Source of the DNA: Syntrophobacteraceae bacterium
Lineage (GTDB): Bacteria; Desulfobacterota; Syntrophobacteria; Syntrophobacterales; Syntrophobacteraceae
NCBI GenBank assembly: GCA_031292215.1
Contig: JARLHO010000012.1
Location: 1-64,000, forward strand
Length of the DNA: 64,000 nucleotides
Direction of reading: 5' to 3'
Shown here: piece by piece, positions 10,286-11,808 of the stretch
Position numbering within the stretch: position 1 is the first letter of the stretch
Layout of the letters: every line of letters begins with the position of its first letter
Program-made: the position numbers and the translations under genes
The notes under the pieces: generated by a model
Database searches by the model: none
Seen by the model: the letters and a program-made list of their open reading frames with translations, nothing else
What the model was told of the DNA's origin: nothing

Positions 10286-10365
10286 CCGAAGGGGGCTTGG
10301 CTCAATCGCCCCCCTACCTCCTTTTGCAATGACTCGCTTGGAGGGGCTTGGCTCGATCACCCCCC
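10286..10365. repeat. Left part of a C-rich dispersed repeat split by IS110
   Basis: Contains two GGGGCTTGGCTC(G/A)ATC units and ends in C6-TT. Together with 11743 onward it rebuilds the uninterrupted repeat seen at 23816-23940. It is the left flank of the IS110 insertion. Confidence 0.7.
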
Positions 10366-10366
10366 T

Positions 10367-10773
10367 TGTATCTTAAAAGAGCAGAGCATGGGTCAACCGG
10401 AGTGCCAGTTACAGGGCATCGGTTGACCCGACAAGAACGGGCCTTTAGGTTTAATTTGTCCGGTGAAACAGAAGTGGGCAACGCCGGAGGGCGACCCACC
10501 GAGGGATAACCGGACGGGATGGCGACGGATATGCCGCCCGGGGGGCCGGAGCCCCCCACTTTCAGCTCCACATATCCCGAGCTTTCCCTCATGCCTTATA
10601 AACTCCGGGGGATTGGGGGCAGAGCCCCCAAAACGTGCGTGGTAGACCGTCCCAACCCGGGTCTGAAAAGACCGTGTTGTAGCATGGGTCGCCACGCATT
10701 GTCCGGAGTTTGATCCCGAACAGTTGCCAGGGCGAACAGAGCCCGAATCTATGCAAGGCAGGGAGTATAAGTC
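10367..10773 (+). ncRNA. Candidate bridge RNA region of the IS110 element
   Basis: The roughly 400-bp noncoding left end upstream of the transposase is where IS110-group elements encode the bridge RNA that guides donor and target recognition. Strong hairpins are visible: GGGTCAACCG/CGGTTGACCC (10390-10429) with a nested TGCC/GGCA, a G6/C6 hairpin at about 10531-10550 and TTGGGGGC/GCCCCCAA at about 10613-10632. Two of the latter present C-runs similar to the C6 of the target. RNA boundaries and loop guides cannot be fixed by eye. Confidence 0.4.
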
Positions 10774-11709
10774 ATGGAAACTCAATCCGTGTTTGTGGGA
10801 ATCGATATCTCGAAGGACCGGCTTGATGCCTTCGTCAGGCCTCAAGGTGAGTCTTTTTCCATCCCCAATTCCGATCAGGGAGTCGGCCTGCTTACTGAAC
10901 GTGTCGGAGCGTTTCATCCCCTGGTCATTCTCCTTGAAGCAACAGGGGGCTATGAGACCAGGATCGTTGCCGCCCTTGCTCACGCAAAGCTTCCCGTCGT
11001 TTTGATAAATCCACGCCAGGTGAGAGACTTTGCCAAGGCCACGGGAAGGCTCGCCAAAACGGACCGAATCGATGCCGAGATTATTGCCCACTTCGCCGAG
11101 GCGATCCATCCCGAGCCGCGTCTTCTCCCCGACGAGGAGCATAAGGAGCTTTCGGCGCTCATGTCTCGGCGATCTCAACTGATTGACATGATTGTCATGG
11201 AAAAGAATCGCTTGCACACAACGACCATAACCGTGAGAAGCCATATTAAAAGCCACCTCGATTGGCTCCAAATCCAAGTTCGAGATGTCAATAGCCAAAT
11301 CGACCAATTTATAAAACAAAACCCGGTGCTTAAGAGAAAGGTTGAAATTGTGACAAGCGTTGCCGGAGTAGGCCCCACTATCTCCAGAACTCTCATGGCC
11401 CATCTTCCCGAACTCGGGCAAATATCCAATAAGAAGATCTCCGCCTTGGTTGGAGTGGCCCCGTTTAACTCTGATAGCGGAGGACACAGGGGAAAGAGGA
11501 TCATTTGGGGTGGAAGAAACCAAGTTAGATCTATACTCTACATGGGCGCGCTTGTCGCCGTGCGGCACAATCCTGTCATACGCAAATTCTACCGAAGGCT
11601 TCTCGCGGCGGGAAAGGCTAAAAAGGTCGCTCTCACGGCCTGCATGAGAAAGCTCCTTACTATTCTCAATGCCATGGTGAGAGATGACTCGCTTTGGTGC
11701 GCAAAATAA
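10774..11709 (+). CDS. IS110-family transposase
   Basis: 311 residues. The N-terminal RuvC-like DEDD domain begins [12 protein letters not shown] (first Asp), with LLEATGGYE (Glu) and [13 protein letters not shown] (the paired Asps). The C-terminal Tnp_IS116/IS110 domain has a helix-hairpin-like [21 protein letters not shown], then the conserved [20 protein letters not shown] with the serine nucleophile region, and [16 protein letters not shown]. Length is slightly short of but within the IS110 range and no frameshift is visible, so it may be active. ATG with GGCAGGGAG upstream. A long frame on the opposite strand is only its shadow. Confidence 0.93.
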
Positions 11710-11742
11710 CATTATGACCTCTTGATTTTTAAGACAGTTGCT

Positions 11743-11808
11743 TTTTTGCAAAGGGGGGAAGGGGGGATTTACTCTGCTGCAGCCGGAAAAAACGAAAGAA
11801 CTGACCAA
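11743..11808. repeat. Right part of the repeat split by IS110
   Basis: T5-GCAAAGGGG, then GGGGGGATTTACTCT and AGCCGGAAAAAACGAAA. The same order occurs at 23856-23940, showing both are copies of one dispersed element. Confidence 0.7.

Follow-up and report, generated by a model that had tools for sequence, protein, structure and literature searches.

The window, the 64,000-nucleotide stretch of Syntrophobacteraceae DNA analysed here (contig JARLHO010000012.1), carries an intact IS110-group insertion sequence, in the long left end of which is a bridge RNA whose guides spell the foot of a REP-like hairpin. The window copy lies in a C-rich repeat that these guides do not match. Taken as a whole, the best explanation is probably that of a recently active element with about six near-identical copies in its genome, of which the copy in the window is a natural off-target insertion. 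The element is a typical member of the IS110 group, to which it adds a new example but not a new type.

Matches to the DEDD_Tnp_IS110 and Transposase_20 domains, both above the curated cut-off, bear out the initial annotation of an IS110 element. The ends proposed there are correct to the base and recur in the other copies, its length of about 1.37 kb is measured as 1376 bp counting one core (the right core being included), and its CT core, with insertion without duplication, agrees with the junction and with the ends of the other copies. Also in keeping with the family are the absence of a target duplication and of terminal inverted repeats, the latter assessed by eye on the element ends. Membership of the IS110 group, as opposed to IS1111, is indicated by 407 bp of non-coding sequence from the element start to the ORF, about 30 bp to the right of the ORF, and the position of the RNA within the left end (Table 1).

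At the left flank, C6 (10360-10365) is followed by TT (10366-10367) and then by GTATCTTA; at the right end, GACAGTTG is followed by CT (11741-11742) and T5GCAAAGGGGGG. From local sequence alone the overlap at the window copy is ambiguous over CTT; it was set to CT because the left ends of the other copies all read CCT/TGTATC and their right ends all read GTTGCT/ACAA.

Table 1. Features of the IS110 element and its surroundings (window positions unless a locus is named).
Feature	Position	Strand	Basis or remark
IS110 element, 1376 bp	10367..11742	+	both ends same in all other copies; L014 copy 99.9% identical over full length
Left CT core	10365..10366	+	shared with flank; boundary common to all six left ends in the genome
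Right CT core	11741..11742	+	sequence; right ends of other copies
IS110 recombinase, 311 aa	10774..11709	+	D11, E55, D97, D100 and S235 at DEDD/serine positions by alignment
TATCTT, -10 box, promoter complete only in circle	10369..10374	+	TTGATT-17-TATCTT
TTGATT, -35 box at right end	11722..11727	+	sequence
5' hairpin of left end, GGGTCAACCG...CGGTTGACCC	10390..10429	+	fold
Extra structured domain (model R2), between promoter and bridge RNA	10459..10584	+	covariation
Bridge RNA core, target-binding and donor-binding loops (model R1)	10635..10765	+	covariation
Left target guide UCCCAACCC	10650..10658	+	6/7 match to sister-site CCCAACC
Right target guide UGUUGUAG (reverse complement CTACAACA)	10675..10682	+	5/5 match to sister-site CTACAA
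Left donor guide ACAGUUGC	10720..10727	+	identical to right-end donor half 11734-11741
Right donor guide AUGCAAG	10751..10757	+	pairs with CTTGTAT (core and left end), one G-T wobble
C-rich repeat, left half, interrupted	10300..10366	+	sequence; junction alignment
C-rich repeat, right half, interrupted	11743..11850	+	sequence; junction alignment
Empty near-canonical target GCCCAACCT/CTACGG	12218..12234	-	about 480 bp from element; 9/12 guide match
Uninterrupted paralogue C6T6GCAAAG7	23850..23873	+	sequence
R2-type domain copies	window 10459-10584; L229 3001-3130; L230 615-725; L231 552-660; L002 1494-1619; L232 3173-3285

The two-loop structure at 10635-10765 aligns with the left ends of elements from other phyla that are 40-55% identical in protein. 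Its stems covary, with changes on both sides in 13 of 21 pairs, a level reached by none of 500 shuffles, and the signal is lost when the partners are slid. Within the first loop, CCCAACC (10651-10657) repeats the regular target's left half and UUGUAG (10677-10682) complements its right half; at the sister copies, as expected of a bridge RNA, the target loop is complementary to the flanks and the donor loop to the element ends. The guides are laid out as published for IS621, with left guides pairing to the bottom strand and right ones to the top (PMC11208158). Opposite the bridge RNA, on the other strand, there is a full-length match, scoring under the gathering threshold, to the Rfam family sX15 (RF02234), an sRNA of Xanthomonadaceae. 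Three different IS110 elements give such a match (window 10621-10779, minus strand; L017 2319-2484; L112 2454-2611), and sX15 may represent the antisense of an IS110 bridge RNA locus or such a locus recorded on the wrong strand.

Spanning the junction that a circular form would have is the arrangement TTGATT-17-TATCTT, and the two boxes stand in the same phase, 17 bases apart, in 19 of the 19 elements with both ends. As judged by sequence, a promoter would thus be reconstituted at the circle junction, in agreement with that described for IS621 (PMC11208160), and we infer that circles form and that transcription starts there.

With a covariance model of the bridge RNA, more elements were collected from the earlier loci and from 395 genomes belonging to the phylum, and guides were compared with flanks in 31 entries (30 related elements and one sister site of the present element). 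The donor loop served to place right flanks and the TGTAT end to place left flanks, neither step drawing on the target loop, apart from a few guide boundaries that were set by hand. The cognate left guide matched at 4.67 of 7 positions (2.56 with flanks permuted among elements) and the cognate right guide at 4.33 of 5 (1.84 when permuted), each value being reached in 0 of 20,000 permutations. Across the 30 related elements, guides therefore predict flanks far better than chance. On the combined scale, sister sites match at about 11 of 12 positions and non-cognate pairs at 4.4 of 12 on average. The own flanks of the window copy match at 3 of 12 (3/7 on the left and 0/5 on the right); of all the window's CT sites, about 61% do at least as well. 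To the extent that the assembly represents the guides, the flanks of the window copy are not picked by the element's own guides. A second mismatch, failing on the right side as the window copy does, is seen in a Planctomycetota element (L023, 2332-2467), in which the right guide predicts CTTTTTTA and the flank reads CTAACCCG (0/5 on the right).

In a DNA search of the genome, the window copy was the only complete one, accompanied by five left and five right ends that sit at contig ends, are 99-100% identical to it and break off 87-140 bp into the element. Preceding the other left ends is CCCAACCT (5/5), and following the CT of the other right ends is ACAA (5/5). A full copy with one difference, its left flank carrying CCCAACC and its right flank CTACAA, is present in JARLHI010000053.1 (L014). 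This copy and the ten ends sit in AGCCCAACCT/CTACAA, part of a different REP-like hairpin, and the regular target is the foot of that hairpin, TTGTTGGGCT...AGCCCAACCT/ACAA. A different species of the genus contributes two right ends, which read CTACATT and CTACAGC, and AGCCCAACCTACAA is present uninterrupted 10 times in the genome. The L014 contig is filed under Candidatus Obscuribacterales and carries, besides the element, the left flank of contig 94 of the window's genome, to which its own left flank is identical over the stretch shown; it is probably wrongly binned. In L007 (G000 contig 7), a regular left end is preceded, some 70 bp upstream, by a second left-end fragment that stands alone, CCCACCCTTGTATCTTAAAAGA.

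The initial annotation had taken C6T6GCAAAGG to be the target repeat of the element, and had proposed a search for further copies, naming flanks that lack the C-rich repeat as the outcome that would speak against it. The search returned the same two ends and the same CT core in every other copy, and the flanks are of just that kind: all five left ends, all five right ends and the L014 copy lie in the other repeat. The claim is contradicted as well by the bridge RNA, which spells the hairpin site.

Joined over one CT, the flanks of the window copy read C6T6GCAAAGGGGGG; written as a target, the site is ACCCCCCTTTTTTG. The form C6T6GCAAAG4 is not due to chance, since the 4.89-Mb genome contains it exactly 81 times and a reversed control pattern 0 times; in other copies of the repeat the number of T ranges from 3 to 8. 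Of the 30 intact repeat copies fetched, many align with the joined flanks straight through the junction without a gap, and both the insertion site and the repeat at 23850 are followed downstream by GGGGGGATTTACTCT and AGCCGGAAAAAACGAAA. The latter repeat had been described as an exact empty site: it does match the joined flanks, but it is paralogous, because six same-genus genomes, all of which keep both neighbouring genes at a short distance from each other, lack the whole repeat cluster between them and offer no orthologous empty site. As this cluster (window 10235-12370) is missing between the same two genes in all six, the C-rich repeats around the element were probably gained in this lineage.

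By analogy with IS621, excision to a circle would join the right and left ends and create the junction promoter, which would drive a left-end transcript containing the target loop (CCCAACC / UUGUAG) and the donor loop (ACAGUUGC / AUGCAAG). Strand exchange by the recombinase would take place at the CT that circle and target both contain, and would create no duplication. The hairpin foot, AGCCCAACCT-ACAA, would be the programmed site, and the window copy would have gone into the C6T6 repeat at a CT that matches the guides no better than a random one. It is this score, 3/12 as at a random CT and against about 11/12 at sister sites, that suggests a natural off-target insertion, which we consider probable and which was presumably guided by the same RNA; in line with this, a complete bridge RNA of this type is found nowhere else in the genome. 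When IS621 inserts off target in E. coli, 87% of the sites retain the CT core and only about half closely resemble target or donor (PMC11208160), a picture that a CT inside a C-rich stretch fits. Strong IS621 off-targets usually have one or two mismatches (PMC11208160), beside which a right-side match of 0/5 is extreme.

A further point against the off-target reading is that the element interior was assembled once for about six copies, so the guide shown may be a consensus and not that of this locus. The locus could then hold a reprogrammed target loop fitting C6/T6, over which the assembler placed the majority sequence of the other copies. The early breaks in those copies mean that the interior is collapsed, and the right guide of the related L023 element, with its complement CTTTTTTA, shows that such guides exist in the family. 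We nevertheless regard this as unlikely, as the assembly has no second complete bridge RNA and the copies agree at 99-100% identity in their ends and in every stretch sampled. The fragmentation of the assembly into 177 contigs, with breaks at repeats, might suggest that the two flanks were joined from different loci. This is very improbable: the two flanks each represent half of one repeat type, the genes on either side are adjacent in several same-genus genomes, and the ends in the genome comprise five left and five right ones of hairpin type and a single left and a single right one in C-rich sequence, which belong together because every other end is hairpin-type. That the C6T6GCAAAGG repeat is the target after all would account for the element sitting precisely inside a member of an abundant repeat family, and we give it next to no credence, given that at least 80 other repeat copies are empty, that the other copies of the element are all elsewhere and that the bridge RNA does not match the repeat. 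A second bridge RNA was also considered as the guide into C6T6; only a relic target loop on contig 103 was found, and its guides, CCCAACCC / GGCGUAG, do not fit. Resemblance of the window site to the donor in place of the target amounts to 3/5 on the right side, a weak agreement compatible with chance.

Between the junction promoter and the bridge RNA core is the R2 domain, and the spacing from promoter to two-loop RNA is about 270 bases here, compared with roughly 12-131 in most relatives. The domain is kept in two same-genus relatives, in the contig 103 relic and, in G413, in a decayed IS110 copy that belongs to a different family. It covaries at 9 of 15 pairs, with 22 both-side cells and none of 500 shuffles as high, on rows that were fitted to the model. 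No match was found in Rfam, even with lax filters, and identity with a known RNA was rejected on that ground; a search for plasmid or viral relatives found none. The R2 model also finds copies 8-13 bases downstream of genes for rve + Mu_C transposases and AAA_22 ATPases (domains checked on the G259 proteins only), of which G259 has four identical ones and G425 and G344 a single one each; PF02371 (IS110) was not found in G259, G425, G344 or G324. Downstream of the domain is a conserved CCATGCCTTAWAAAACCC-like stretch. The relic (L002 1494-1730, G000 contig 103) consists of the R2 domain and the target loop, has neither donor loop nor recombinase, and ends at a copy of the C-rich repeat. The R2 domain is probably an undescribed structured RNA or a small mobile sequence. 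We put at a little short of even the chance that the left end of an IS110 subfamily took it up, making it an RNA module shared by two unrelated transposon types and the 5' part of an enlarged bridge RNA; such sharing would weigh more if the domain is a functional RNA.

If the window copy is indeed a natural off-target insertion, sites of this kind bear on the stringency with which bridge-RNA recombinases act in nature. The IS110 guide code can be read here from sequence, has been checked on about ten sister ends and fails at one natural site.

IS621 of E. coli (IS110 group; Durrant et al. 2024, PMC11208160; structure 8wt6) has, like this element, a DEDD + serine recombinase and a CT core, and the two share a long left end with target and donor loops, a circle-junction promoter (predicted here) and a REP-like target repeat. 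Compared with IS621, the present element has a longer left end with the extra domain at 10459-10584, other guides and another target, and a window copy that appears to lie off target. Among solved structures, the best sequence match is the ISCro4 transposase (9t56; E 1e-37). The same RNA architecture, with guides matching the element's own flanks, is found in an IS110 element from a Nitrospirae MAG (L015; recombinase 55% identical), which has other guides and targets and is without the extra domain, and in one from the same genus (G009, L112), again with other guides and targets.
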